IMG/VR virus record: IMGVR_UViG_3300028073_000008
Span: 1 to 64,000 of that record
Source of the DNA: a virus
Reading direction: 5' to 3' (one strand)
Length of the DNA: 64,000 bases
The notes under the pieces are model-generated. The model worked only from the letters and a program-made list of their open reading frames with translations. It was not told the DNA's origin and made no database searches. The position numbers were made by a program, and so were the translations under genes. Below are positions 22,650-53,650 of the stretch, one piece after another; position 1 is the stretch's first letter, and every line of letters begins with the position of its first letter.

Positions 22650-22837
22650 TAGTCAATATAGCTAACAAGATCGGACAGGCACACGGAAAGTTTTTTCTGT
22701 GGCTGAGCAAGAAAGCTGAAAGCCATCCTTTGTGGGCAGTGGCATTGACGCTGTGGGCATTGTATGAAATCTTTGAACACATAGCACTACCGACGATTGG
22801 TGTGTTATGGGCGACAGGTGACCTCACACTGCGCTAG
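22646..22837 (+). CDS. Small membrane protein (63 aa)
   Basis: ATGA-coupled to the oxygenase gene. One or two hydrophobic stretches (LWAVALTLWALYEIFEHIAL and following) after a basic N-terminus indicate an inner-membrane peptide. The last 7 nt of the gene are the first 7 nt of the tRNA. Function unknown. Confidence 0.6.
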   Translation: MIVNIANKIGQAHGKFFLWLSKKAESHPLWAVALTLWALYEIFEHIALPTIGVLWATGDLTLR

Positions 22838-22904
22838 AAGCTCAATGGATAGGCAGAGACTTCTAAACTCTCGATAGCAGGTTCGATTCCTGTCTGGCGC
22901 ACCA
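22831..22904 (+). tRNA. tRNA-Arg (anticodon UCU)
   Basis: The acceptor stem GCGCTAG/CTGGCGC (22831-22837 with 22894-22900, one G-U), T arm GCAGG-TTCGATT-CCTGT and encoded CCA (22902-22904) are clear. The anticodon loop CTTCTAA (22860-22866) gives anticodon TCT for AGA/AGG. The anticodon stem has one A-A mismatch at its top. AGA is frequent in these genes, so the tRNA probably supports phage codon use. Confidence 0.9.
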
Positions 22905-27253: not shown

Positions 27254-28039
27254 ATGGATCCAGTGACCCTATTTGCCCTAGCCAACGGAGCGGTTAGTGC
27301 CGTTAAGGCGGGGTGTAAACTTTATAAAGATATAAAAAGTGCTGCTGGGGACGTTAAAGACGTCCTCAAGGATCTGGACGCCCAATTCCATAAAGCCTAC
27401 GAAGGCAAAGGCAAAGCACCCCCTCCCGAAGCTGTCAAGCAACTAAAAGAAGAAAAAGCCCGTGTAGTCGAGCTTAATAAAAAAGCCAACAACAATGAAC
27501 AATCTAACATCTATACAGAAATCGGCAACGAGCTGGGCAAGTACTACGACAATTATTACAAATGTCAAGCGATATTCGAAGAAGAAGAACGACGCAGTCG
27601 TACTGAAGCTTACCACGGCGATGACAGTCTAGGCAAACGTGCTTTACAAAGAGTCTTGATGCGCAAACAGCTAGAGCAAATGGGCACAGAGCTGCGTGAA
27701 ATTATGGTCTATCAAAGCCCACCAGAACTTGGCGCACTCTATACAGAAGTAGAAGAAATGATGAAAGTCATGGGTAAAGAACAAAAAGCTGCCATGGCTC
27801 GAGAAATACAACAATATCAAAGAGAAGAACGCAGACGACAAATTAGAAAAGAACAGTTAACCAAACAGTTTACAGTAGGTATAGGCATCATGATAGTGAT
27901 ATTTGTCACTATGTTCATGTTCATGTATGTCATAGATTATAGACAAGAGCGTTTTCCTGATTTAGGTAATTGCCCTATGCCAAAAGGATCTTGGCTATAC
28001 AAAAAATGGACTAATACTATTTGGGCTACCTGTGAATAA
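27254..28039 (+). CDS. Coiled-coil protein with membrane segment, conserved in T4-like phages (261 aa)
   Basis: The N-terminus MDPVTLFALANGAVSAVKAG is a hydrophobic glycine-rich helix. Residues 40-205 are a long charged coiled coil (REIQQYQREERRRQIRKEQL), followed by one membrane helix (VGIGIMIVIFVTMFMFMYVI) and a short Trp/Cys tail. A similar architecture occurs in hypothetical proteins of cyanophages. Possible roles include tail tape-measure-associated or membrane-adaptor protein; none is established. Confidence 0.6.
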   Translation: MDPVTLFALANGAVSAVKAGCKLYKDIKSAAGDVKDVLKDLDAQFHKAYEGKGKAPPPEAVKQLKEEKARVVELNKKANNNEQSNIYTEIGNELGKYYDNYYKCQAIFEEEERRSRTEAYHGDDSLGKRALQRVLMRKQLEQMGTELREIMVYQSPPELGALYTEVEEMMKVMGKEQKAAMAREIQQYQREERRRQIRKEQLTKQFTVGIGIMIVIFVTMFMFMYVIDYRQERFPDLGNCPMPKGSWLYKKWTNTIWATCE

Positions 28040-28045
28040 AAGCTC

Positions 28046-28075
28046 TTGACAGAATATAAATAAACCTGCTACAGT
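28046..28075 (+). promoter_or_regulatory. Promoter for the tmRNA locus (overlapping sigma70 and late-type elements)
   Basis: TTGACA (28046-28051), an 18-nt spacer and TACAGT (28070-28075) form a sigma70-type promoter. A perfect late element TATAAATA (28055-28062) lies inside the spacer, so the tmRNA could be transcribed both early and late. Confidence 0.55.
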
Positions 28076-28076
28076 G

Positions 28077-28147
28077 TAGCACTATTGCTGTATGAAGCGA
28101 TGAAAAAGGTGTTCTGGACGCCGGGGCAGTACCGGCCAGGTCCACCA
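28077..28147 (+). ncRNA. ssrA: Acceptor (3') piece of a permuted two-piece tmRNA
   Basis: The right end is certain. T arm GCCGG-GGCAGTA-CCGGC (28120-28136) is followed by acceptor strand CAGGTCC (28137-28143), discriminator A and encoded CCA (28145-28147). CAGGTCC pairs over 7 bp with GGGCCTG at the start of the coding piece (28285-28291), and the pairing gives a G3-U70 wobble, the alanine identity element. The 5' limit is approximate. The acceptor piece lies upstream of the coding piece, the gene order of permuted tmRNAs known in Alphaproteobacteria, some cyanobacteria and some Betaproteobacteria. Confidence 0.85.
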
Positions 28148-28284
28148 AAAGCACAGAGGTTAGAGATGATTTTTTTACTTTGGAATTGGTTTGCTTACTC
28201 GAATCAAGATTCGGGTGATCTAAGTAGACACCGTAAACACACTACATTGTATGAAGATCTCTGTATGTGATCTGTGTTTTTGAT

Positions 28285-28448
28285 GGGCCTGAATTAGGTT
28301 CGACAGGGCAATGAGTATCAGAGTGGACAGCAGGGTAGGCGATGACCCTAAATCAAGCAAACAAACTAGACGCAAACGACAACGTTTACGCACTAGCTGC
28401 CTGAACAAGGTAAGCAGGGGCTGGTAAGCCTGGCAACAGAAACTTCCA
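28285..28448 (+). ncRNA. ssrA: Coding (5') piece of the permuted two-piece tmRNA, tag ANDNVYALAA
   Basis: GGGCCTGAATTAGGTTCGAC at 28285 matches the conserved tmRNA 5' end (E. coli GGGGCTGATTCTGGATTCGAC). The resume codon GCA is at 28372 and the open frame encodes A-N-D-N-V-Y-A-L-A-A followed by TGA (28402-28404). The tag differs from E. coli ANDENYALAA at two positions and keeps the C-terminal LAA degradation signal. A strong terminator follows. Between the two pieces lie 137 nt that would be removed by processing. No tRNA-like end follows the terminator, which confirms permutation. Confidence 0.88.
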
Positions 28449-28480
28449 AGATAGGCTACTTCGGTAGCCTATCTCTTTTA
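28449..28480 (+). terminator. Rho-independent terminator of the tmRNA locus
   Basis: An 11-bp perfect stem AGATAGGCTAC/GTAGCCTATCT (28449-28474) has a TTCG tetraloop and is followed by ctttta. Confidence 0.9.
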
Positions 28481-35518: not shown

Positions 35519-36538
35519 ATGAGAATCGAAGACGAAATTAAACTTGATTTCAGCGACGTGCTGATTAGACCAAAACGCAGTACTCTAGCAAGCCGTAAAG
35601 AAGTAGATCTAACTCGCACATACAAATTTAAACACAGTGGGTTTGAATGGACTGGTGTACCGGTTATGGCATCCAACATGGATGGAGTCGGTACTATTGA
35701 GATGGCTCGGGCATTGTACAAGCATCAGCTGTTTACCTGTTTGGTCAAAAGCTACGCAGAAGATGATCTATATGAACTAGCAAGTAAATTTGGCGGAAAC
35801 TATTTTGCTGTTAGCACAGGTACCAGTGACGCCGATTTCAATAAGCTGAAAAGAATCTTAAATTCTTACCCCGAAGTACACTTTATCTGTATAGACATAG
35901 CTAATGGATATAGTGAACATTTTGGTGACTATGTTGCTAGAGTAAGAACAGAATTTCCTAAAGCAACAATTATCGCAGGTAATGTAGTTACCGCTGATAT
36001 GACACAGGAGTTGATTCTACGTGGCGCAGATATTATCAAAGTTGGGATTGGGCCAGGAAGCGTATGTACGACTAGGGTTCAAACTGGTGTTGGGTATCCT
36101 CAGCTTTCCGCTATTATTGAATGTGCTGATGCTGCTCATGGCCTTGGCGGACACATCATTGCTGATGGAGGATGTACCTGTCCTGGAGACATCGCAAAAG
36201 CTTTTGGTGCTGGCGCTGATTTTGTCATGCTTGGCGGTATGCTAGCAGGGCACGATGAGGGCGGTGGCACAGTAGAAAACGATATGGTAACATTTTATGG
36301 AATGAGTTCAGATACTGCTATGAACAAACATCACGGTGGTGTTGCTGAATATCGTAGTAGCGAAGGACGTACAGTTAGTATTCCATATCGCGGAGCAGTA
36401 AAAGACACAGTACTAAATATTCTAGGCGGGTTGCGTAGTACCTGTACATATGTTGGCGCACCCACGCTAAAACAGCTTTCAAAGTGTACTACATTTATTC
36501 GTGTCAGTAGACAAATAAATGATGTATTTCTGAGATAA
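35519..36538 (+). CDS. guaC: GMP reductase / IMPDH-family protein
   Basis: The 339-residue TIM-barrel lacks CBS domains, as in GMP reductase. Key blocks are [25 protein letters not shown] with the catalytic Cys, [35 protein letters not shown] and [14 protein letters not shown]. It converts GMP to IMP with NADPH, shifting purines recovered from host RNA and DNA. Assignment to GMP reductase rather than IMP dehydrogenase rests on the TRxxTG active site and C-terminal STCTYVGA block. Confidence 0.85.
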
Positions 36539-36617
36539 ATAAATTTGTTACGGTGCCCAGGTGGGGCTGTAACAGGGGCAGTTGCCCAAAACTTACTCGC
36601 TTATTAAAGGAGAAAAC
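36534..36617 (+). promoter_or_regulatory. dnaK leader: late promoter, structured RNA element and ribosome site
   Basis: GATAAATA (36534-36541) is followed by an element with outer stem GTTACG/TGTAAC (36547-36552 with 36568-36573), inner stem GCCC/GGGC and loop AGGTG. Next come a GGGC-AGTT-GCCC hairpin (36576-36587) and GCTTATTAAAGGAGAAAAC (36599-36617). The 16-nt core GGTGCCCAGGTGGGGC and the ribosome-site block recur before hsp20. Confidence 0.65.
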
Positions 36618-36618
36618 G

Positions 36619-38508
36619 ATGAGTAAAATCATAGGTATCGATCTAGGTACCACTAATTCATGCGTTGCTATTATCGAAAGCAACATTCCAAAAGTAATCG
36701 AAAACAGCGAGGGTGCTAGAACTACACCGTCTATTATCGCTTATAGTGATGACGAAGTCCTAGTAGGAGCACCAGCTAAACGACAAGCTGTAACAAACCC
36801 TAAAAATACTCTATATGCTGTCAAGCGTTTGATTGGACGCAAGTTCAAAGAAGATGCTGTACAGAAAGATATCGACTTGATGCCGTTTGAGATCATGGAA
36901 TCTAAGAATGGCGATGCTTGGGTAAAGGCTAACGGAAAAGAATTGGCTCCTCCACAAGTATCAGCAGAAGTTCTGCGCAAGATGAAAAAGACCGCAGAAG
37001 ACTATCTCGGTCATGAAGTCACCCAAGCAGTTATTACTGTACCTGCGTACTTCAACGACAGCCAACGCCAAGCTACTAAGGACGCTGGCAAGATCGCAGG
37101 ACTAGAAGTACTGCGTATTATCAATGAACCAACAGCAGCCGCACTGGCCTACGGTGTTGACAAAGCAGACAAGCGTGATCGTAAGATTGCGGTCTACGAC
37201 TTAGGTGGTGGTACATTTGATATTTCAATCATCGAAATCGCTAACGTCGACGGCGACAAGCAAATCGAAGTGTTGTCTACAAACGGTGACACATTCCTGG
37301 GTGGTGAAGACTTTGACCAACGTATCATGGACTACCTAGTAGATGAGTTCAAAAAAGAAAGTGGTATCGATCTCAAGAAAGACACATTGGCGCTACAGCG
37401 TTTGAAAGATTCAGCTGAAAAGGCCAAGATCGAACTGTCTAGCAGTTCACAAACTGAAGTCAACTTGCCATACATCACAGCTGATGCTTCAGGTCCTAAG
37501 CATCTAAATGTCAAGATCACTCGCGCTAAGTTTGAAGCATTAGTTGACGATTTGATCAAACGTTCTCTAGAACCTTGTAAGACCGCTATGAAAGACGCGG
37601 GTGTAAGTGCCAGCGACATTGACGAAGTTATCCTAGTCGGTGGTCAGACACGTATGCCTAAAGTACAAGAAGCAGTTGAGAAACTGTTTGGTAAAGCACC
37701 ACGTAAAGATGTCAATCCAGACGAAGCAGTAGCAGCTGGTGCTGCTATCCAAGGTGCCGTACTAGGTGGCGATCGCACAGACGTTCTATTGCTAGACGTT
37801 ACACCATTGAGTCTTGGTATCGAAACCATGGGCGGTGTGTTTGCTAGATTGATCGACAAGAACACTACTATTCCTACCAAGAAGAGTCAGATCTTTAGCA
37901 CAGCAGAAGATAATCAACCTGCTGTTACTATTAAGGTATATCAAGGCGAACGTGATTTGGTACAATACAATAAGATGTTGGGTGTGTTCAATCTAGAAGG
38001 TATCGCCCCTGCTCCTAGAGGTATTCCGCAGATTGAAGTGACCTTTGATATCGATGCTAATGGTATCATGAACATCGGTGCTAAAGACAAAGGTACTAAC
38101 AAGGAAGCCAAGATCACTATCAAAAGCGATAGCGGTCTAAGCGAATCCGAGATCCAGACGATGATCAAGGAAGCAGAAGAAAACGCCGAGAGCGATAAGA
38201 AACAACGTGAACTTATCGAAGCTCGCAACAGTGCTGAAGCTTTGATTAACTCTACCAAGAAAGATTTGGAAGAACTCAAAGATCAGTTGACAGCTGATGA
38301 TATCACTAAGTTAGAAGAAGCTGTCAAGGCAGCAGAAGACTCATTAGGCTCCGACGATAAAGAAACTATCGGCGAAAAGGTCAATGAAATCTACGCTGCT
38401 TCTAAACCTCTGTTTGACGCCAAAGCCAAGAAAATGGAAGACAGCCAAAAAACAGAGGATAAGAAAGACGATAATGTGGTTGACGCAGAGTTCAAGCAGA
38501 CTACATAA
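36619..38508 (+). CDS. dnaK: Chaperone DnaK (Hsp70)
   Basis: I chose ATG 36619, behind aaaggagaaaacg; the longer frame runs through the leader hairpins. At 629 residues it is full length: [14 protein letters not shown] at the N-terminus, [13 protein letters not shown], the adenosine site [21 protein letters not shown] at the start of the substrate domain, a helical lid and a C-terminal DNVVDAEF-type tail. It uses ATP to hold unfolded proteins and probably assists phage assembly or host stress control. No dnaJ or grpE is seen in the window. Confidence 0.95.
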
Positions 38509-38571: not shown

Positions 38572-39012
38572 ATGAACGCATTAAATAGATTTGACGCAAA
38601 CGCTCTTAATAGGGCTCTAATTGGTTTTGATACAATGTTCGATCAACTCGAACGTCGTTTCGCTAACCAAATCCAAAACAATTATCCACCTCACAATATT
38701 ATCAGGACTGGTGAAAACACCTACGCCATCGAAGTGGCTGTAGCTGGCTTTGCCAAGAATGAAGTTTCAGTCACCATCGAAAATAATGAACTTTCGATCA
38801 AGGGCGAAAAGGTAGATACCGTCGTAGACGAAAATATCCAGTATCTACATCGCGGGCTAGCTAGTCGCGATTTTGTTCGCGTGTTCCCTCTTGCTGAACA
38901 CATCGAAGTTAAAGGTGCCGAAATCAAGGACGGAATTCTCACAGTTAAGTTGGAGCGAATCGTCCCTGAAGAACTGAAACCACGTGTTATCGACGTAGTG
39001 GAAGTCAAGTAA
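38572..39012 (+). CDS. Small heat shock protein Hsp20 (IbpA-type, 146 aa)
   Basis: The alpha-crystallin domain spans about residues 40-135, with YPPHNIIRTGENTYAIEVAV, GEKVDTVVDENIQYLHRGLA, FVRVFPLAEHI and the G-[IV]-L motif DGILTVKLERIVPE. Such proteins hold aggregating proteins for refolding by DnaK, whose gene is just upstream. Hsp20 genes are also common in cyanophages. Confidence 0.93.
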   Translation: MNALNRFDANALNRALIGFDTMFDQLERRFANQIQNNYPPHNIIRTGENTYAIEVAVAGFAKNEVSVTIENNELSIKGEKVDTVVDENIQYLHRGLASRDFVRVFPLAEHIEVKGAEIKDGILTVKLERIVPEELKPRVIDVVEVK

Positions 39013-39045: not shown

Positions 39046-39060
39046 ACCATGGAGCCTAAA

Positions 39061-39360
39061 ATGACAACTGATATTCAAATTGATCAAAAGATTAAAATCG
39101 AAATTTCACCTCCTAAGTACTGGAAAGTGATTTTTCTGAATGACGATCAAACGCCAATGGAATTCGTAATTGACGTTCTAAAAACTATTTTTAGGCACGA
39201 CGAAGGCAAAGCACGTGAACTAACTTTAGAAGTACATGAATCTGGTTCTGCTGTAGCAGGTGTTTATACATATGAAATCGCAGAACACAAAGGTACTGAA
39301 GCTAGTAGAGCTGCTTTAGAAAATGGATTTCCTCTACAGATTCGTGTAGAAGAAGAATAA
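39061..39360 (+). CDS. clpS: ATP-dependent Clp protease adaptor ClpS (99 aa)
   Basis: ATG 39061 has ggag 8 nt upstream, so I prefer it to ATG 39049. The ClpS core is clear: YWKVIFLNDDQTPMEFVIDV, LKTIFRHDEGKARELTLEVH and GVYTYEIAEHK. ClpS delivers N-degron proteins to ClpAP. With the phage ClpP (61616) and the LAA-tagging tmRNA it suggests phage steering of host proteolysis. Confidence 0.9.
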   Translation: MTTDIQIDQKIKIEISPPKYWKVIFLNDDQTPMEFVIDVLKTIFRHDEGKARELTLEVHESGSAVAGVYTYEIAEHKGTEASRAALENGFPLQIRVEEE

Positions 39361-39412: not shown

Positions 39413-39961
39413 ATGAGCCTTAAAGAACTCACACAAGAAAAACACAAAGACGCAGAACGTACCGCTTTTGCTAAATTGTTACTAAGCGGTTCTATTGATA
39501 AAGAACAATATGCCAACTATCTTTTACAGATGTTGGAAATCTACAGCGTGTTAGAATACCACGCTGCCAATCATGGGTTGCTTACAGACCTAACAGGTCT
39601 ACCTAGATCAAAAGCTATCTATGAAGATCTAATCGAACTATCAGAAGATGGTACAGGTCGAGTGTTACAGGCAACAGTAGACTATGTTAGCTATCTACAT
39701 CAATTGGCTGAAACTAATCCTAACAATCTAATGGCTCACTTGTATGTCCGCCACATGGGTGATCTATATGGCGGCCAGATGATAGCTAAAAAAGTACCTG
39801 GTAAAGGTAAGTTTTATCAGTTCACAGACAAAGACGGACTCATAGCCAAGATTCGTGCCAAACTAGACGACAGTATGGGTGACGAAGCCAACGTAGCATT
39901 TGATCACGCTATCAATATCATGAAGGAACTAAATGAGTCAAGTTTGGTCCACGCTGATTGA
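39413..39961 (+). CDS. ho1: Heme oxygenase (182 aa)
   Basis: EKHKDAER carries the proximal heme ligand His11, and HMGDLYGGQMIAKKVPG is the distal-helix signature. Length and order fit bacterial and cyanophage heme oxygenases, which open heme to biliverdin IXalpha, Fe2+ and CO using ferredoxin. It overlaps the downstream bilin reductase gene by 29 nt, so the two steps are coupled. Confidence 0.92.
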   Translation: MSLKELTQEKHKDAERTAFAKLLLSGSIDKEQYANYLLQMLEIYSVLEYHAANHGLLTDLTGLPRSKAIYEDLIELSEDGTGRVLQATVDYVSYLHQLAETNPNNLMAHLYVRHMGDLYGGQMIAKKVPGKGKFYQFTDKDGLIAKIRAKLDDSMGDEANVAFDHAINIMKELNESSLVHAD

Positions 39962-40613
39962 TATTCAGCATTTGCTAGAAGAAAGGTTTAATGCCACAGG
40001 AACCGAGATCAACGAACCAGGAATGGATAGGTTTAATCAGCCTGGTTGGGTTAATCGTGTGTGGACTTCTGATGTTTATCGTCGTGCTCACATCGATGTG
40101 GTAGATGCTCGTGAAACTCGCAGCCTATGGATGATGCACTGCTGTATATTTCCCCACACACATAATCCTGCTCCTATATGGGGTTTTGATGTAGTAGCTG
40201 GTAAAAACAAAATCACGGGCTGTTTCCACGACTACTCGGCAGCAGGAGACAAACATCATCCTATGATGGATTGGTTTGGCGATTATGTCAGTAATCTAGA
40301 ATGGCGCAAGGTACGTGAATTACCTGACTGGGCACAGCGTATATTCAGCCCACATATGGTGGCTGCTAGCAATATACAAGCAGAAGAAGAACTAGAACAG
40401 ATCACACAGATGGCCCGAGATACGCTAGAACACTATCTTAGCACAGTAGCTGAAACTAATAACACCCACGCAGATACCACAGAATATCAAAATTACTATG
40501 CTATAAATCAAAAGCAAAACCCGCATACACCGCGTGTAATGGCTAGTTTAGGGTTAGATGAAGAAGATGTACGTGTTTTTATCCAAGATTGCCTGTTCCC
40601 AGAGATTCGATAA
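39933..40613 (+). CDS. Ferredoxin-dependent bilin reductase (PcyX/PebS-type, 226 aa)
   Basis: The family core is present: VWTSDVYRRAHIDVVDARET, then LWMMHCCIFPHTHNPAPIWG and FDVVAG with the catalytic Asp86, ITGCFHDYS, and the C-terminal LGLDEEDVRVFIQDCLFPEI. These enzymes reduce biliverdin to coloured phycobilins. To my knowledge the non-cyanobacterial phage member is PcyX, which makes phycoerythrobilin. Which bilin this one makes cannot be told by eye. It is coupled to heme oxygenase. Confidence 0.85.
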   Translation: MSQVWSTLIDIQHLLEERFNATGTEINEPGMDRFNQPGWVNRVWTSDVYRRAHIDVVDARETRSLWMMHCCIFPHTHNPAPIWGFDVVAGKNKITGCFHDYSAAGDKHHPMMDWFGDYVSNLEWRKVRELPDWAQRIFSPHMVAASNIQAEEELEQITQMARDTLEHYLSTVAETNNTHADTTEYQNYYAINQKQNPHTPRVMASLGLDEEDVRVFIQDCLFPEIR

Positions 40614-40623: not shown

Positions 40624-42204
40624 ATGAGATTTTTCGAATTCAAACTTCCCAGTGCTAACTCACCTCTTTTAAACAAGATCGTAAGCTCTATTACAGATCT
40701 TGTAAATTCTGCTAAAAAACTGCCCGAAAATGATCCAGCACGTAAAGAAGCCGACGATCTCATTAATTCTCTTAAAAATAAAGCAGGTATAACAGAATCC
40801 GATGCTATTTCAGAATTAGAACATGATATGATTGTTGCCATAGCCAAAGCATTGATTTCGACAGGAAATCAACAGGCAACATTAAGTTTGATTGATATAG
40901 AAAAAATCAAGAAAAATATCGAAGTACAACAAAAAACTAAAAAGGTAGCACAAGCACATCAAGAGCTTGGTAAACAGCAATACGTAAAATCTCAAGAAAC
41001 TGATACTAGCGATCTTGACGAGATAGGAGCAGCGATCGAGAAAAAATTAGGAACACCTAAAGGATGGACTAAATCTAAAATCATTAATCCTTTATTGTCT
41101 GTAGGAATTGACAAAGAACTACTTTATGTGTTTCTAGATCAATGTGCGTCCGGCACGGCTATGAATTGGAATTTCAACGATGGAATTCACCCTATCACTG
41201 ATTTTAAATCGTTAATGTCTGACGAATCTAAAGAAATATTTTCTAACAAACAAGCTAAAGATATTCTTTTAACAGCCAGGTGGTCAGAAGCCGGCGGCGA
41301 AGGCGACGGAGAAGTGATGATAGGATTACTAGCAGATGCTAGCCATCCAGAGAAAGGTGATATCACAGTCAAAGGTGTTCCTTATGAAGTCAAAGCCACA
41401 GGATGGAGATTTAACAAAAAAGGCGATGTTAGTGGTACAGAAGCATGGTTAGATGCTGGTCCTTACTCGTCTAATATCGAAGGTGTTAAAGCTATCTTTA
41501 AGAAATTAATTAATGCCAGGGGTATTACTGCTTCTGAAGAAAATATAGCATTAGCTGATTTTAGAAAAGCAGGAACACAAAGTCTTAAACAGATAATGTC
41601 TCGTGTTAAAGATCCTGTTGATTTAATGTCGTCTTTACATTCTGCTGTGTTCCCTAATGCTGATAAAAATCAAATCAAACAGGCTTCTGAAAATATTGTA
41701 GCATCACAATATGATTACAGAGTATCGGCTAAGGAACAGGGATTACTAGCTATGGCAGAATATGCTGCCGAGCATGACAATTTTGGTTTTGTTTTTATCG
41801 ATAAAACTAATTTTAGTGGAATGATTTCTAAAAACGCAGTAGGAGAAAGTGAAGCATTTACATTTAGTTCTCCTATGACTATGTCAACAGCCAAAACCAC
41901 AGATGCTACAACTACTACTAAGAAAAGAAAAGCTAGTCCAGGAATAATGACTGGTTCTAGAGCACAAGCACAAAAGACTCTAGGTTGGCAATCTAAAAGA
42001 CAACCAGCACAACCAGCAGTATCTACAGCGTTAGCTAATGATCCAAAAAAGGGATTTTATTCTAAGTACGACAAAGCTACTATGGATCAAATCCTAACAA
42101 CTTTTAAAGATAGAAAACAATTAGTCGCCGATTACAAAAGTTTAACTCTGCCAGAGTTTGAAAAGAAGTATGTAGAACCCATACTTCAACCTAAACTTAT
42201 ATAA
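40624..42204 (+). CDS. Large protein with MRFFEF leader and PD-(D/E)XK-like motif (526 aa)
   Basis: The N-terminus MRFFEFKLPS matches the leader-bearing genes at 13040 and 13462. Residues 20-130 are helical. ARWSEAGGEGDGEVMIGLLA followed by GDITVKGVPYEVKATGW (about 219-262) has the G-E, G-D and E-x-K spacing of PD-(D/E)XK nucleases. The C-terminal third is Thr/Lys/Ala rich and then helical. A virion-packaged nuclease is possible. The motif reading is mine and unverified. Confidence 0.5.
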   Translation: MRFFEFKLPSANSPLLNKIVSSITDLVNSAKKLPENDPARKEADDLINSLKNKAGITESDAISELEHDMIVAIAKALISTGNQQATLSLIDIEKIKKNIEVQQKTKKVAQAHQELGKQQYVKSQETDTSDLDEIGAAIEKKLGTPKGWTKSKIINPLLSVGIDKELLYVFLDQCASGTAMNWNFNDGIHPITDFKSLMSDESKEIFSNKQAKDILLTARWSEAGGEGDGEVMIGLLADASHPEKGDITVKGVPYEVKATGWRFNKKGDVSGTEAWLDAGPYSSNIEGVKAIFKKLINARGITASEENIALADFRKAGTQSLKQIMSRVKDPVDLMSSLHSAVFPNADKNQIKQASENIVASQYDYRVSAKEQGLLAMAEYAAEHDNFGFVFIDKTNFSGMISKNAVGESEAFTFSSPMTMSTAKTTDATTTTKKRKASPGIMTGSRAQAQKTLGWQSKRQPAQPAVSTALANDPKKGFYSKYDKATMDQILTTFKDRKQLVADYKSLTLPEFEKKYVEPILQPKLI

Positions 42205-43379: not shown

Positions 43380-43823
43380 ATGTATAAAAGGATATGTATT
43401 CTTCTAGTAGCACTGACTACGTCAGCACAGGCTACAGAACTGGTACATCAATTCCAAAGTCCGGCCTTTATACCGGGCAATGGATACTCCTCTCATGTCC
43501 TAGCTATTGAGCAGCTAGAGTCGCAGCGCAAACAAAAGATCAAAGATGACGAAAAAGCAGCCATAGAAGCAGAAGCATTGGCTAAGAAAAATACGAACCT
43601 ATCCAAGTTTCTAGTAAACGTAGAAGCTAGAATATATGCGCAGTTATCTAAGCAGCTAGCAGATCAGCTGTTTGCCGAAGGTGGAGCTACGAACGGCACT
43701 ATGAACTTCCAGGGAACCAATATTAGTTGGGTTAAGACAGGCACAGAAGTTACTTTAACCATTATCGAATCTAATGGCAGCAAAACAGAAATAACAGTAC
43801 CTATAGCGAGCTTTTCTTTCTAA
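43380..43823 (+). CDS. csgF: Curli assembly protein CsgF homologue (147 aa)
   Basis: The signal peptide MYKRICILLVALTTSAQA is followed by TELVHQFQSPAFIPGNGYSS, which aligns with the mature CsgF N-terminus ([20 protein letters not shown]), the part that inserts into the CsgG pore. A charged helix and a C-terminal beta region (GTEVTLTIIESNGSKTEITV) follow, as in CsgF. In bacteria CsgF couples secretion to fibre nucleation at the surface. TAATG overlap with csgG. Confidence 0.85.
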   Translation: MYKRICILLVALTTSAQATELVHQFQSPAFIPGNGYSSHVLAIEQLESQRKQKIKDDEKAAIEAEALAKKNTNLSKFLVNVEARIYAQLSKQLADQLFAEGGATNGTMNFQGTNISWVKTGTEVTLTIIESNGSKTEITVPIASFSF

Positions 43824-45001
43824 TGAAAAAAATATTATTGATACCGCTGCTAGCATTGGTTTTGTCTGGGTGTGCTACAGTTCACATGGAACTGGCACAG
43901 GAAGAACCTGTGGCTATACAACCAAAACAAAACCTGTATGATAAGATACCACCATTAGATGGTCCACCTATGACTGTAGCAGTGTATGGTTTTACTGACA
44001 AAACTGGACAGATGAAACCCAATGATAAATTGGCAGTTTTCAGTAAAGCGGTAACACAAGGAGCAGAAGTATTTCTTATCAAAGCTCTACAAGATACCAA
44101 ATGGTTCCGTGTAGTAGAACGTGTTGGTCTTGATAATCTAATCAAAGAACGCCAGCTGATACGCAATCAACGAGAAGTATATGAAGGTAAAGATGCTAAA
44201 CCATTAGCACCTATGGTAGTAGCCGGAGTGATGATCGAAGGTGGTATCATAGGCTACGACAGTAACATTAGATCAGGTGGTAATGGTGCTAGATTCTTAG
44301 GTATCGGAGGAAGCCAACAATACAGAGTAGATGAGATAGTTATATCTATGCGTTTGATCAGTGTAAACACAGGAGAAGTTATATTAACTAACTCTGTTAG
44401 TAAAACAATTTATAGCACACAGCATAATGTGGGTGTGCTACGTTTCGTAGATGCAGGTACCAAAGCAGTAGAGCTAGAAAATGGTCAAGCATTAAACGAA
44501 CCAACTACTTATGCTGTTCGTGTTGCGATCGAACAGGCTGTTTATGACATGATCATGGACGGACAACGCAGAGGTTTTTGGCGTTTCAAACTTCCATTGC
44601 GTCAAACACCTCCTTTACCTGAGGAGAAAAAAGATGAGTTGGTTCAACCACAGAGCGAGACGCAGAAAGAAACCAATCCAGCCGCCGCCACAAGAGCAGC
44701 GCCTGCCGCAGAAACCAAACCAGCAGTAGTAGCAACTCCTGCTGAAACCAGATTAATAGTTACACCATCACAACAGGCACAATTAGTTGGCAAAAAAGGC
44801 AAAATGAAAGACACGATTTATGTTAGGAGAGAACCTAACGAAACTTCTACTCGAGTTTGGCTGTTTACAAAAAGCACAGTAGTAAATGTAACAGAAGAAA
44901 ACGGAGAGTGGATCAAAATAGTTGCCGAGGACGGCAAGAAAGGATATGTTAAGAGAGATAGCATAACTGTAGATAGTAGTACCAACAATACTGGTCGATA
45001 A
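43823..45001 (+). CDS. csgG: Curli secretion pore CsgG with C-terminal SH3-like extension (392 aa)
   Basis: A lipobox (LSGC) makes this a lipoprotein. The CsgG domain (about 45-265) includes PPMTVAVYGFTDKTGQMKPN, VVERVGLDNLIKERQLIRNQ, GGIIGYDSNIRSGG and YRVDEIVISMRLISVNTGEV. CsgG forms a nonameric outer-membrane channel. Typical CsgG has about 277 residues; here a Pro/Ala linker and an SH3b-like domain (TIYVRREPNETSTRVWLFTK, then GKKGYVKRDSI) are added, suggesting peptidoglycan or surface contact. csgF precedes it and a curlin follows. Confidence 0.92.
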   Translation: MKKILLIPLLALVLSGCATVHMELAQEEPVAIQPKQNLYDKIPPLDGPPMTVAVYGFTDKTGQMKPNDKLAVFSKAVTQGAEVFLIKALQDTKWFRVVERVGLDNLIKERQLIRNQREVYEGKDAKPLAPMVVAGVMIEGGIIGYDSNIRSGGNGARFLGIGGSQQYRVDEIVISMRLISVNTGEVILTNSVSKTIYSTQHNVGVLRFVDAGTKAVELENGQALNEPTTYAVRVAIEQAVYDMIMDGQRRGFWRFKLPLRQTPPLPEEKKDELVQPQSETQKETNPAAATRAAPAAETKPAVVATPAETRLIVTPSQQAQLVGKKGKMKDTIYVRREPNETSTRVWLFTKSTVVNVTEENGEWIKIVAEDGKKGYVKRDSITVDSSTNNTGR

Positions 45002-45021
45002 ATTGGCCAAGGCGGAGCGAA

Positions 45022-45684
45022 ATGAAAACGAGAATGACGGGTATAGGCAAACCTAGCACAATTGCCTTAGTAGCGGCAATGCTATTTTCAAGCGTAGCAT
45101 TAGCCAACGATCTTTACATCGAACAATCGGGCGATGATACGGCTGTGACTATCTTACAAGACGGATCGCAGAATAAGATCGAAGGACTTACTCCTGGAGA
45201 TAATGCTTATATCGGAGGTGGCGGTAACGTTGTTAATATCCAACAAGTTGGCGCTAACAACCTTATTTCTCTATCTTTGAATAACCCTAACATGGGTGGA
45301 GTGGGTACAGGTACAGCTCTTACGATAAATCAGCTTGGTAACGATAATATTTCTACTGTACAATGCGGTACATCTTTGGCTGCTACCTGTAATGCTTCAG
45401 TTATCACTCAAAACATCACTGGTAGTAGCAACGATGTAACTCAGACCTTGACAGGTGGCGGTGCTTACAGCAGCGTGGTCAATGTCACAGGCGATTGGAC
45501 CAAAGTCACTCATACACAAACAGGTGCAGGAGCGCACACAGGAAACATCACCGTGAACAGCACAGCGACTTCGCTAGCTGATAAAAATAATGTATCCTTG
45601 ACGCAGACAGGAGCGATAGCGAAAAGTGCCACGATCAGCAGTTCAGGAGCTAATATTAATATTTCTGTTACTCAGCACGACTAA
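45022..45684 (+). CDS. Curlin-like fibre subunit (220 aa)
   Basis: The signal peptide (to ALA, about residue 28) is followed by about six curlin-type repeats of the form I-x-Q-x-G-x-x-N: YIEQSGDDTAVTILQDGSQN, VNIQQVGANNLISLSLNNPN, LTINQLGNDNIST, VITQNITGSSNDVTQT, THTQTGAGAHTGNITVN and SLTQTGAIAKSATIS. This is the amyloid repeat of CsgA/CsgB. It is the natural cargo for the CsgG/CsgF pore upstream. ggcggagcgaaATG supplies the start. Confidence 0.85.
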   Translation: MKTRMTGIGKPSTIALVAAMLFSSVALANDLYIEQSGDDTAVTILQDGSQNKIEGLTPGDNAYIGGGGNVVNIQQVGANNLISLSLNNPNMGGVGTGTALTINQLGNDNISTVQCGTSLAATCNASVITQNITGSSNDVTQTLTGGGAYSSVVNVTGDWTKVTHTQTGAGAHTGNITVNSTATSLADKNNVSLTQTGAIAKSATISSSGANINISVTQHD

Positions 45685-46723
45685 TGTCTGGGCAGGAGTA
45701 GGAACAGTAACTGAACAAACTGGTCCTACAGAAATATTTAGAGCTAAGAAATCTATACCTTCGAGCCTAAACACGGCTGTGGAAATGAATGACGCAGTTT
45801 CCACAGCCAAGGCTACTGCTCAGCTGACCTTTGAAGACAAGACTACAGTAAAGATCAACGAGCATAGCAAAATAGTCATAGATGATTTTGTCTACGATCC
45901 TAACAAAGGTTCAGGAAAACTGGCCATGAAGATGGCCATAGGCACTGCTCGCTATACGTCAGGACAGATAGCTAAAAATAGTCCACAACAGGTAGCCATC
46001 AATACTCCTACAGCCAGTGTAGGTGTGCGTGGTACTGATTTTTCTATGACTGTAGACGAGATGGGGCGCAGTCTTATCGTGCTATTACCTAGCTGCGATA
46101 AAAAAGGCTGTGTAACTGGTGCTATCGAAGTGCGCAATGAAGGAGGTGTTGTCATATTAGATGTTCCTTTCCAAGCTACCATGGTCAACACTGCTTATCA
46201 AGCACCTAGCCAACCAGTGGTAGTTAGATTAGATCAAGCTAGTATCAGTAATATGTTGATCATCAGTAAACCAGCAGAAATACAAGATGACGGTAGTGAA
46301 CATAAAAAAGCTCTAAGAGAAAGAGGACTACTTGACTTTGATAAACTAGATGTAGATCTATTGAAATATACCAAGCTAGATGAAAATAAACTAGATGATA
46401 ACAGAGCACTAGATCGTAACGATCTTAATGCTGACCTACTGGCTTTTTATGCGTGGAACGAGTTAGACGCACAGAATAAAACACTGTTAGCTAATGACAT
46501 GGATAATAGTCTGTTACCTAACTATAATGCTGCTAGCGGCCTATTATATTATTTCAATGAAGATCAAAGCAAAGTCACGCTATACCGTGTGACTAATCAT
46601 ACAGCCGTAGTCACACTGCCTACTACACAAAATACTACGCTGAGTATAAACCAAGACGGCCAGCAGGTCGTACAGCAGGTAAACAAGGGTGCTACATCCA
46701 CTATTACTATAACTCAAAAGTAA
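45626..46723 (+). CDS. Secreted FecR-domain protein (365 aa)
   Basis: The start is GTG 45626 (aggagcg upstream), overlapping the curlin gene by 59 nt; it gives a signal peptide ending NVWA. The FecR domain follows: TAQLTFEDKTTVKINEHSKI, VIDDFVYDPNKGSGKLAM and VAINTPTASVGVRGTDFSMT. The C-terminal half is Asp/Leu/Lys rich and ends in beta strands with Gln/Asn (NTTLSINQDGQQVVQQVNKG) that look curlin-like. FecR-domain secreted proteins often accompany CHASE2-cyclases and surface proteins in Proteobacteria. Confidence 0.8.
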   Translation: MPRSAVQELILIFLLLSTTNVWAGVGTVTEQTGPTEIFRAKKSIPSSLNTAVEMNDAVSTAKATAQLTFEDKTTVKINEHSKIVIDDFVYDPNKGSGKLAMKMAIGTARYTSGQIAKNSPQQVAINTPTASVGVRGTDFSMTVDEMGRSLIVLLPSCDKKGCVTGAIEVRNEGGVVILDVPFQATMVNTAYQAPSQPVVVRLDQASISNMLIISKPAEIQDDGSEHKKALRERGLLDFDKLDVDLLKYTKLDENKLDDNRALDRNDLNADLLAFYAWNELDAQNKTLLANDMDNSLLPNYNAASGLLYYFNEDQSKVTLYRVTNHTAVVTLPTTQNTTLSINQDGQQVVQQVNKGATSTITITQK

Positions 46724-51431: not shown

Positions 51432-51584
51432 ATGAAACTTAAAACTTCTGTGATTATCTTGATATCAAGTATATTACTATCCGGCTGCGCAGGCATACGT
51501 TTCTGCGAAAAAGAAGAATCATCTAAAACTGGTTGTCGTCCTTGGGATCCTGCTACGAGATCAGGGGGGTCAGTTAGATCATGA
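51432..51584 (+). CDS. Small lipoprotein (50 aa)
   Basis: ATG 51432 gives a compact lipoprotein signal MKLKTSVIILISSILLSGCA with lipobox LSGC (Cys19) and a 30-residue mature peptide with two further Cys. It is ATGA-coupled to the cyclase gene. Comparable short lipoproteins are often entry-exclusion or lysis (Rz1-like) peptides. The mature part is not strikingly Pro rich, so no spanin claim is made. Confidence 0.6.
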   Translation: MKLKTSVIILISSILLSGCAGIRFCEKEESSKTGCRPWDPATRSGGSVRS

Positions 51585-53650
51585 AAAAGTTTCTAAAAAA
51601 TATTTTATTATCGCCATGGACAGCATTGCTAACATTGGCCCTTGTATTAAGTATAAGAATTACTGATCCTGCCTTTGTAGAAAGTATAAGACTACGTTAT
51701 TTTGATACTCTGATAGCGGCCAAAGAACCGACAGTTAATAATATCTTCACAGTAAATATCGACGAAGCAGCATTAGACAAATATGGACAGTGGCCTTTAC
51801 CTAGAGCAGAATATGCCAAAATCATACGAGATCTATACCAGAGGGGAGCAGGTCTTGTGGTACTTAATGTACTCATGCCAGAACCGGACCGTACAGGTGG
51901 TGACGGTGCGCTGGGTCAAGCTCTAAAAGAATTTCCTGTAGTGCTAGGATCTGCTCCTAGCCAAAAGACTAAAAATACTCCTAAAGTTCCCGGCAGTGCT
52001 GTACTCAATCCAGAATGGTTAGATCAGATTGTACAATATCCTGGATTGATAGCCAACGTTCCGCAAATAGAACAAAACGCTGCTGGAGTGGGTATCACTA
52101 ATACACTGCCAGAGATAGATGGTGTTAACCGTAGGATACCATTGATAGTCGCAGTAGACGATAAATTGTATCCAGGATTATCTTTAGAAACTCTGCGTGT
52201 AGCTACAGGCAATGATACATTCCAGGTTAAATTGTTCGAAGGCGGAGTTGAAAAAATGCGCTTGCCGGGAGATATCGGTATCATACCTACAGATAATTTA
52301 GGCCGTGTATGGATAGATTGGAGTCAAAAATCTCAGTCAATGAGTCTTTCTGATGCCATGTCTATAAAAACGTTCGAAGGTGCTATAGTAGTTTTAGGAC
52401 CAACCGCAGCTGGCATAGGCAATCCTGTGCCTACTAGTATAGGTGCTGTGTTTCCTCACGAAGTACAGGCTGCTGTCATCGGCACTATGATCAATAAAAC
52501 AAACATACAGCGACCTGATTGGGCAGACGGAGCAGAGATACTTACATTGGCCTTGTTGGGATTGATAATCATTGGAATGTCGAGGTGGACTTATGTGGGT
52601 ATTTTTACAACTGTTGGTGGTATCGCTGCCGTTGTTTTTGCCAGTCGTTATGGTTTCACTAACTACCAAATCTTGGGAGACGCGACGGCAAGCACAGCTG
52701 GCCTTGTGCTCGTGGCTCTTCATACTTATGGGATTAAGTTTATAAGCGAGTTTTTACAAAAGCAACAGATCAAGAAACAATTCGGCACTTATCTTAGCCC
52801 AGACCTTGTGGCAAGACTACAACGTCAACCAGAACTACTACAGCTAGGAGGTGATAGCCGTGAACTGTCAATCATGTTTACAGATGTTAGAGGATTTACT
52901 AGTATTTCTGAACACTACGGTAAAGATGTTCAAGGACTTACTAAGATCATGAATCGTTATATGACTGCCATGACTAAAAAGATTCTAGAAAATCATGGCA
53001 CGTTAGACAAGTACATCGGAGACGCACAGATGGCGTTCTGGAATGCTCCGTTGGATAATGCTAAACACGCCAAAGATGCTGTAAAGACAGCTTTAGAAAT
53101 GTTAGGAAGTCTCGATGAGTTTAATAGAGAAATCAAAGAAGAAGGTGTCCCACCTTTTGGTATGGGGCTGGGAATTAATACTGATGTTGTCGTGGTTGGC
53201 AATATGGGCAGCGATCAGCGGTTTGACTATACTTGCCTTGGTGATGGAGTCAACCTTGCGTCAAGGTTAGAAGGACAGAGCAAGCCTTACCATGTTGCTA
53301 TGGTTATAGGACCTAAGACACACGAATATGTCAAAGATGAATACTATTGCCTAGAACTAGATTGTCTAGCTGTCAAAGGCAAGCACGAAGGAGTTAATGT
53401 TTATACAGTGTTGGGTCGTATAGACGAATTAAAAATCCCATTATCAGACACACAGATGCACGCTGCCATGTTACATCTATACAGAAATCAAAACTTCGTA
53501 AGAGCTATTACATTCTGTAAAGATCTCAAAGGTCGTTTCAACGGAGCGATGGATGGGTACTACGATATGTGGATAGAACGCTGCGAGGAGATGAAAGATG
53601 CAGGACTACCAAAAGATTGGGACGGAGTATTTAGGACTAATACAAAGTAA
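51581..53650 (+). CDS. CHASE2-domain transmembrane adenylate cyclase (689 aa)
   Basis: Layout: N-terminal membrane helix (15-30), periplasmic CHASE2 sensor domain (about 35-310), three membrane helices (about 318-386), a short linker helix and a class III cyclase domain (about 425-615). The two metal-binding Asp are in IMFTDVRGFT (Asp435) and KYIGDAQMAFWNAP (Asp481); TCLGDGVNLASRLEG carries the transition-state Asn/Arg. It should make cAMP in response to a periplasmic signal. FecR-domain genes often accompany such cyclases in bacteria, and one lies upstream here. Confidence 0.9.
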   Translation: MKKFLKNILLSPWTALLTLALVLSIRITDPAFVESIRLRYFDTLIAAKEPTVNNIFTVNIDEAALDKYGQWPLPRAEYAKIIRDLYQRGAGLVVLNVLMPEPDRTGGDGALGQALKEFPVVLGSAPSQKTKNTPKVPGSAVLNPEWLDQIVQYPGLIANVPQIEQNAAGVGITNTLPEIDGVNRRIPLIVAVDDKLYPGLSLETLRVATGNDTFQVKLFEGGVEKMRLPGDIGIIPTDNLGRVWIDWSQKSQSMSLSDAMSIKTFEGAIVVLGPTAAGIGNPVPTSIGAVFPHEVQAAVIGTMINKTNIQRPDWADGAEILTLALLGLIIIGMSRWTYVGIFTTVGGIAAVVFASRYGFTNYQILGDATASTAGLVLVALHTYGIKFISEFLQKQQIKKQFGTYLSPDLVARLQRQPELLQLGGDSRELSIMFTDVRGFTSISEHYGKDVQGLTKIMNRYMTAMTKKILENHGTLDKYIGDAQMAFWNAPLDNAKHAKDAVKTALEMLGSLDEFNREIKEEGVPPFGMGLGINTDVVVVGNMGSDQRFDYTCLGDGVNLASRLEGQSKPYHVAMVIGPKTHEYVKDEYYCLELDCLAVKGKHEGVNVYTVLGRIDELKIPLSDTQMHAAMLHLYRNQNFVRAITFCKDLKGRFNGAMDGYYDMWIERCEEMKDAGLPKDWDGVFRTNTK

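Follow-up and report, generated by a model that had tools for sequence, protein, structure and literature searches.

A heme oxygenase and PcyX bilin reductase gene pair in a conserved dnaK-hsp20-clpS block of non-cyanobacterial phages

The window analysed here, the first 64,000 bases of a virus record of 169,155 bases (a linear fragment), carries a heme oxygenase gene, hemO, overlapping a gene for a ferredoxin-dependent bilin reductase (FDBR) of the PcyX class. The pair, heme oxygenase plus PcyX, is of an already known sort. The block in which it is set, dnaK-hsp20-clpS-hemO-pcyX, is new here; no paper describing it was found among those searched, although supplements and figures may show it. 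The whole is explained tentatively, at somewhat less than an even chance, as a heme-to-reduced-bilin pathway (to phycoerythrobilin, PEB, in this phage) that would serve controlled heme turnover in an infected heterotroph.

The hemO-pcyX gene pair

The hemO gene (39413..39961, + strand) encodes a predicted biliverdin-forming heme oxygenase of 182 amino acids. The protein has the features of canonical HO-1/HmuO-type enzymes, namely a match to PF01126 (E 5.5e-24), the proximal histidine (H11) and the distal GDxxGGQ motif (GDLYGGQ, residues 116-122), the latter two being conserved in 83-85 of 85 aligned sequences. Heme oxygenases of the PDB match it at E 8e-15 and weaker. The pcyX gene (39933..40613, + strand, 226 amino acids) begins within hemO, the two sharing 29 bp (39933-39961), and a Shine-Dalgarno-like AGGAG/AAGGA sequence lies about 5 nt before the ATG of each. 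The initial annotation had described an overlapping heme oxygenase and bilin reductase pair at 39413-40613, and both reading frames are indeed found there, with matches to PF01126 and PF05996.

hemO and pcyX occur together in all of the best 80 relatives and overlap in nearly all of them. The median dN/dS, taken from pairs of 85-98.5% identity, is 0.059 for pcyX and 0.060 for hemO, values that indicate strong purifying selection on both genes. Shared presence in relatives, the overlap and dN/dS near 0.06 together confirm that the pair is real and not due to chance. Judged from their sequences both enzymes are intact, and it is very probable that both are active. Selection of the first 80 loci by their FDBR partly accounts for the contrast among them between high FDBR identity (74-84%) and low heme oxygenase identity; in deeper loci (L166-L168) the two identities are about equal. 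A viral scan seeded with the heme oxygenase was too strict and returned a single record, with an identical cassette.

Assignment of the reductase to PcyX

The FDBR domain of the reductase is recognized by PF05996 (E 1.1e-16) and PHROG 7278 (E 6e-21). Its closest match in the PDB is PcyX_EBK42635 (5owg, E 5e-67), with PcyA far behind (E 6e-11), and matches to the NCBIfam equivalogs for PcyA and PebB fall far below cut-off. In a joint alignment D55, H69 and D86 of the window enzyme stand at the residue numbers of PcyX_EBK42635 (chain numbering minus 8); Asp55 of PcyX, shared by the window, occupies the place of Glu76 in PcyA. The AlphaFold2 model has a mean pLDDT of 92, and a Foldseek search of the PDB with this model ranks 5owg first (TM 0.92 by target length), followed by PcyA, with PebS much lower.

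The phylogeny with PcyA, PebS and PcyX proposed in the initial annotation was run on 45 representatives with PcyA and PcyX but lacks PebS, as it does alphaproteobacterial PcyA and CB_2, and its branches are long. With support of 100/100 it places the window and 5owg in a PcyX clade of 39 rows, apart from 6 PcyA sequences (five from cyanophages and one from Synechocystis). Within the PcyX clade the sequences of the marine pelagiphage type group together with support; the window falls elsewhere, among lineages whose order is unresolved. Grouping and catalytic aspartates had been named beforehand as the points on which the PcyX likeness should stand or fall; the enzyme groups with PcyX and retains both D55 and D86, plus H69. 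By sequence, tree, predicted fold and diagnostic residues it is a PcyX, that is, a phage four-electron FDBR, and for these reasons PEB is its probable product.

Variation at position 55

PcyX makes PEB, and Asp55 is a PcyX-specific catalytic residue (Wegner 2024, PMC11480375). The same study found that the phage enzyme CB_2, which is without Asp55, yields PCB and not PEB, and that the HemO of this phage is active. Among 208 FDBRs neither H69 nor D86 ever varies. At position 55, 190 of the 202 rows of the PcyX clade have D, and the other 12 have N (9) or V, Y and C (1 each). These 12 relatives carry the same genomic block. Since H69 and D86 are fixed, position 55 varies and an enzyme without Asp55 yields PCB, it seems from the sequences that reduction of biliverdin is always kept and that the product is free to change in some lineages. 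The retention of D55 in most rows means that product identity may nevertheless be under selection in most lineages.

This variation bears on the alternative that the pair supplies a chromophore, the reduced bilin being attached to a phytochrome or a bilin-binding globin of the host so that the phage retunes the light or redox sensing of its heterotroph. The product of the CB_2 enzymes has been loaded onto the phytochrome Cph1 (Wegner 2024, PMC11480375), bilin-binding globins are found in bacterial pre-PcyA clusters (PMC10151467), and the FDBR is as constrained as the heme oxygenase, as a bilin-using role predicts. Set against this, the product-setting position 55 varies inside one syntenic family, and a PHY domain is absent from the 14 records searched for it. 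PEB, moreover, forms photoinactive adducts with classical phytochromes, and PEB is what the D55 enzymes would be expected to make. Chromophore supply is thus considered unlikely.

The dnaK-hsp20-clpS-hemO-pcyX block

The immediate 5' neighbour of hemO is clpS (39049..39360, 103 amino acids, PF02617 E 1.2e-27), encoding a putative adaptor of the host ClpAP protease. It is preceded by hsp20, for a small heat-shock chaperone (38572..39012, 146 amino acids, PF00011 E 7.7e-17), and by dnaK, for an Hsp70 chaperone (36553..38508, 651 amino acids as listed, 65% identity to annotated DnaK by tblastn), whose listed start may lie upstream of the true ATG. All are on the + strand, as is guaC, for a GMP reductase (35519..36538, 339 amino acids, NF003470 at 555.6 bits, over cut-off), which adjoins the block in the window and in L167, L168 and L204-L206. 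The order dnaK-hsp20-clpS-hemO-pcyX is nearly fixed in 83 FDBR loci, with dnaK in 80, hsp20 and clpS in 81 each and hemO in all 83. A 4-bp overlap joins clpS to hemO in 71 of 80 loci; the window belongs to the small number in which a gap, here of 52 bp, precedes hemO.

Because the 83 loci had been picked by their reductase, the search was repeated with a ClpS seed, a check blind to the reductase. Both hemO and pcyX lie downstream in 36 of the 46 loci so found; the remaining ten comprise two loci truncated at a contig end, five with a distant ClpS (44-48% identity) and three without the pair. The block also occurs, at about 50% identity, in L166-L168, contigs binned into bacterial genomes. Contigs with the block or the pair (L165, L166, L167 and L168) are assigned to MAGs of Arcticimaribacter, Halobacteroidaceae, Pirellulales and Neomarinimicrobiota, probably because phage sequences have contaminated the bins. 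In the 80 pelagiphage-type loci neither dnaK nor hsp20 nor clpS was found beside the pair within the stretches covered, many of which are short contigs.

As genes upstream of the block and csgF/csgG downstream are conserved too in the 83 loci, the linkage to chaperone genes may partly be general gene-order conservation of this phage group. The gene overlaps are a stronger argument than synteny for a shared operon. Scans for promoters and terminators across the block yielded little or nothing beyond what shuffled sequences gave.

The fixed neighbours DnaK, Hsp20 and ClpS are stress proteins, and in one relative (L193, 1460-3374) GroES-like and GroEL-like genes are inserted in the same block, between dnaK and hsp20. 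Both observations would suit a stress package, with bilin and CO acting to shield the infected cell or to adjust the respiration of the host. Hsp20, however, belongs to the core genes of related cyanophages and may have a part in capsid maturation (PMC7674155), so that the neighbours could be uninformative about the pathway, and nothing found here links the bilin with stress. An antioxidant or signalling role is accordingly regarded as rather improbable.

Other variations surround the block. The open reading frame 3' of pcyX (40624..42204, + strand, 526 amino acids) has no significant Pfam or PHROG match and belongs to a cluster of 12 only; most relatives have another family at this place, between conserved neighbours. 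Its N-terminus, MRFFEFKL, is resembled by MRYHEIRL and MRYSDFKQ in L167 and L168. Between clpS and hemO, L196 (4341-5054) and L202 (4300-4893) carry NUMOD3 homing-endonuclease-like genes in the opposite orientation. A second, inverted hsp20-clpS-hemO-pcyX copy is found about 7 kb away on one contig (L074); its identities to the window are those of L080/L081, and for this reason the contig could be a chimeric assembly.

Insertions between hemO and pcyX

In six loci a flavin halogenase gene, a CN-hydrolase gene or both are placed between hemO and pcyX, an arrangement that is new here. The gene of the tryptophan-halogenase family, which overlaps or abuts its neighbours, is found in L037, L198, L199 and L201, and the CN-hydrolase in L168, L198, L201 and L204, the loci L168 and L204 being near-identical. 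The arrangement is seen at 6506-8050 in L037 and at 2479-4763 in L198. Of the pelagiphage-type loci that extend 3 kb or more upstream of hemO, 38 in number, 9 have a halogenase homologue in that stretch or nearby. The insertions may be common phage genes picked up by chance, or they may point to further modification of the bilin. In an extended form of the latter, the reduced bilin from heme oxygenase and PcyX would be altered in some lineages by flavin halogenase and CN-hydrolase, and phage ClpS would steer host ClpAP to remove host heme-synthesis enzymes or regulators. The product would then be a phage-specific bilin for a heterotroph, not a light-harvesting pigment. Such a pathway of tetrapyrrole modification, coupled to protein quality control, is highly improbable.

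A trace of the pair was also observed in a bacterial strain, though PcyX was thought to be confined to phages. In Shewanella surugensis DSM 17177 (L169, 7453-8225) an intact heme oxygenase gene is followed by a broken PcyX-like remnant (an RRAHIDVVD motif and then a stop), near a transposase-like open reading frame.

The phage and its host

The relatives of the window are T4-like contigs. A T4-type portal was identified in 3 of 6 larger relatives tested, with Pelagibacter phage Mosig as the control; a search for Gp23 in the window's own record, run with no positive control, gave no match. Among records that share the block, lengths go up to 363,943 bases. Two relatives carry pmoC, the marker of large freshwater phages of methanotrophs (Chen 2020, PMC7674155). 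alaS (5-aminolevulinate synthase) is present in 8 of 13 relatives, with none in the window's 169-kb record, itself a fragment.

Directly after the bilin block a curli-export cluster (43380-46723) runs in the order csgF-csgG(+SH3)-curlin-like-FecR. It includes csgF (43380..43823, + strand, PF10614 E 9.7e-20; 62 of 83 loci) and csgG (43823..45001, + strand, PF03783 E 1e-54; 59 of 83 loci), which encodes a curli outer-membrane pore with an extra C-terminal SH3 domain (PF08239 E 5.6e-9). A CHASE2-adenylate/guanylate cyclase gene follows at 51581-53650, the curli-to-cyclase order being that of Methylophilales phage Melnitz. Melnitz and pelagiphage HTVC008M are the closest named phages for these downstream curli and cyclase genes.

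The window also encodes a permuted two-piece tmRNA of betaproteobacterial type (28032..28476, + strand; RF01850 114 bits, RF04321 138.7 bits, ARAGORN) with the tag ANDNVYALAA. The same type occurs in 15 of 21 records, the window's included. In the controls the tmRNA of Mosig (SAR11 host) is of alpha type as expected, but that of Melnitz is of alpha type too despite its Methylophilales host, and the tmRNA type is for this reason a host hint only. The heterotrophic proteobacterial host of the initial annotation stands at the level of that hint; the hosts are probably heterotrophs of water, and on sequence a heterotrophic betaproteobacterium is likely. A tRNA with a CTA anticodon (22831-22904), called tRNA-Pyl by ARAGORN and a plain tRNA by Rfam (42.7 bits), is a possible amber suppressor.

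Searches of the 169-kb record with Photo_RC, Phycobilisome, PHY and Fer2 gave no gene for a photosystem reaction centre, phycobilisome, phytochrome or 2Fe-2S ferredoxin; the record is a fragment, in whose missing part photoreceptor or ferredoxin genes could lie. The absence of photosystem and phycobilisome genes noted initially for the window thus extends to the record. Across 21 records there was no reaction-centre gene and no phycobilisome gene over cut-off; matches to Phycobilisome in four relatives were weak, below cut-off and mostly in very long open reading frames, and were dismissed.

For pmoC phages, close relatives of cyanophages by phylogeny, it has been suggested that photosynthesis genes serve a cyanobacterial host within a broad host range (Chen 2020, PMC7674155), and the bilin pair of the window could by analogy be kept for light harvesting. 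The gene searches above and the betaproteobacterial-type tmRNA speak against this, as do the separation of the PcyX clade from cyanophage PcyA and the heme oxygenase, which is nearest to that of pelagiphages and not of cyanophages. The earlier description of the phage as of non-cyanobacterial type holds. That relatives vary the product-setting residue within a strictly conserved block further argues against light harvesting as the purpose, which is very unlikely.

A possible role in heme turnover

Heme turnover is the most likely reading because no light-harvesting or photoreceptor gene was found, the residues for reduction are fixed while position 55 drifts, and the pair is locked behind dnaK-hsp20-clpS. 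HemO would open host heme to give biliverdin IXa, Fe2+ and CO, and PcyX would reduce the biliverdin with electrons from host ferredoxin, to PEB in the phage of the window. The freed iron could pass to iron enzymes of the infected heterotroph, and the draining of biliverdin to a reduced bilin would keep the heme oxygenase running. Removal of biliverdin is known to speed heme oxygenase in the mammalian pair of heme oxygenase and biliverdin reductase. Since a heme oxygenase alone would release iron, conservation of the FDBR is just as compatible with a need for the bilin itself. A role in heme catabolism, read from genomic context, is held at somewhat less than even odds. Of the roles offered by the initial annotation, the phytochrome chromophore finds no support inside the phage, and the operon and the variable product residue lean to heme catabolism, iron and redox functions.

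The block, the D/N/V/Y/C series at position 55 of one genomic site and the halogenase insertions provide direct handles on the purpose of the bilin. They predict the product of each phage, and can tell a biliverdin-clearing role from that of a specific chromophore.

Comparison with known systems

The initial annotation implied that such a cassette was surprising in a non-cyanobacterial phage, yet hemO-pcyX is already published from such phages (pelagiphage Mosig; Wegner 2024, PMC11480375). In the 2024 study PcyX had until then been known only from viruses of marine environments, and the purpose of bilin synthesis in non-cyanobacterial phages was called enigmatic.

Phages Melnitz and HTVC008M share with the window the order csgF-csgG-curlin repeat-FecR-cyclase, which in the window lies just 3' of the bilin pair; in Melnitz the stretch ahead of csgF has no hemO-pcyX or clpS. 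The marine phage-derived PEB synthase PcyX_EBK42635 (5owg) is identical to the window enzyme at about half of its residues and has D55, H69 and D86 at the same numbers. Unlike the window it falls in the marine pelagiphage-type clade, whose loci are those that have no clpS, dnaK or hsp20 beside the pair. Pelagibacter phage Mosig EXVC030M (MT647606) is a cultured phage with a heterotrophic host and likewise has overlapping hemO and pcyX genes, at 48%/38% identity to the window; its pair lies by the neck genes with hsp20 elsewhere and, unlike the window, it has its own 2Fe-2S ferredoxin and an alphaproteobacterial-type tmRNA. The CB_2 phage, with vHemO-vPcyA/X-vAlaS (Wegner 2024; Chen 2020, pmoC phages), differs in lacking Asp55, which the window retains, in yielding PCB and in carrying alaS, a gene not found in the 169 kb of the window's record, but it resembles the window in being a large phage of a heterotroph that carries a hemO-FDBR pair.
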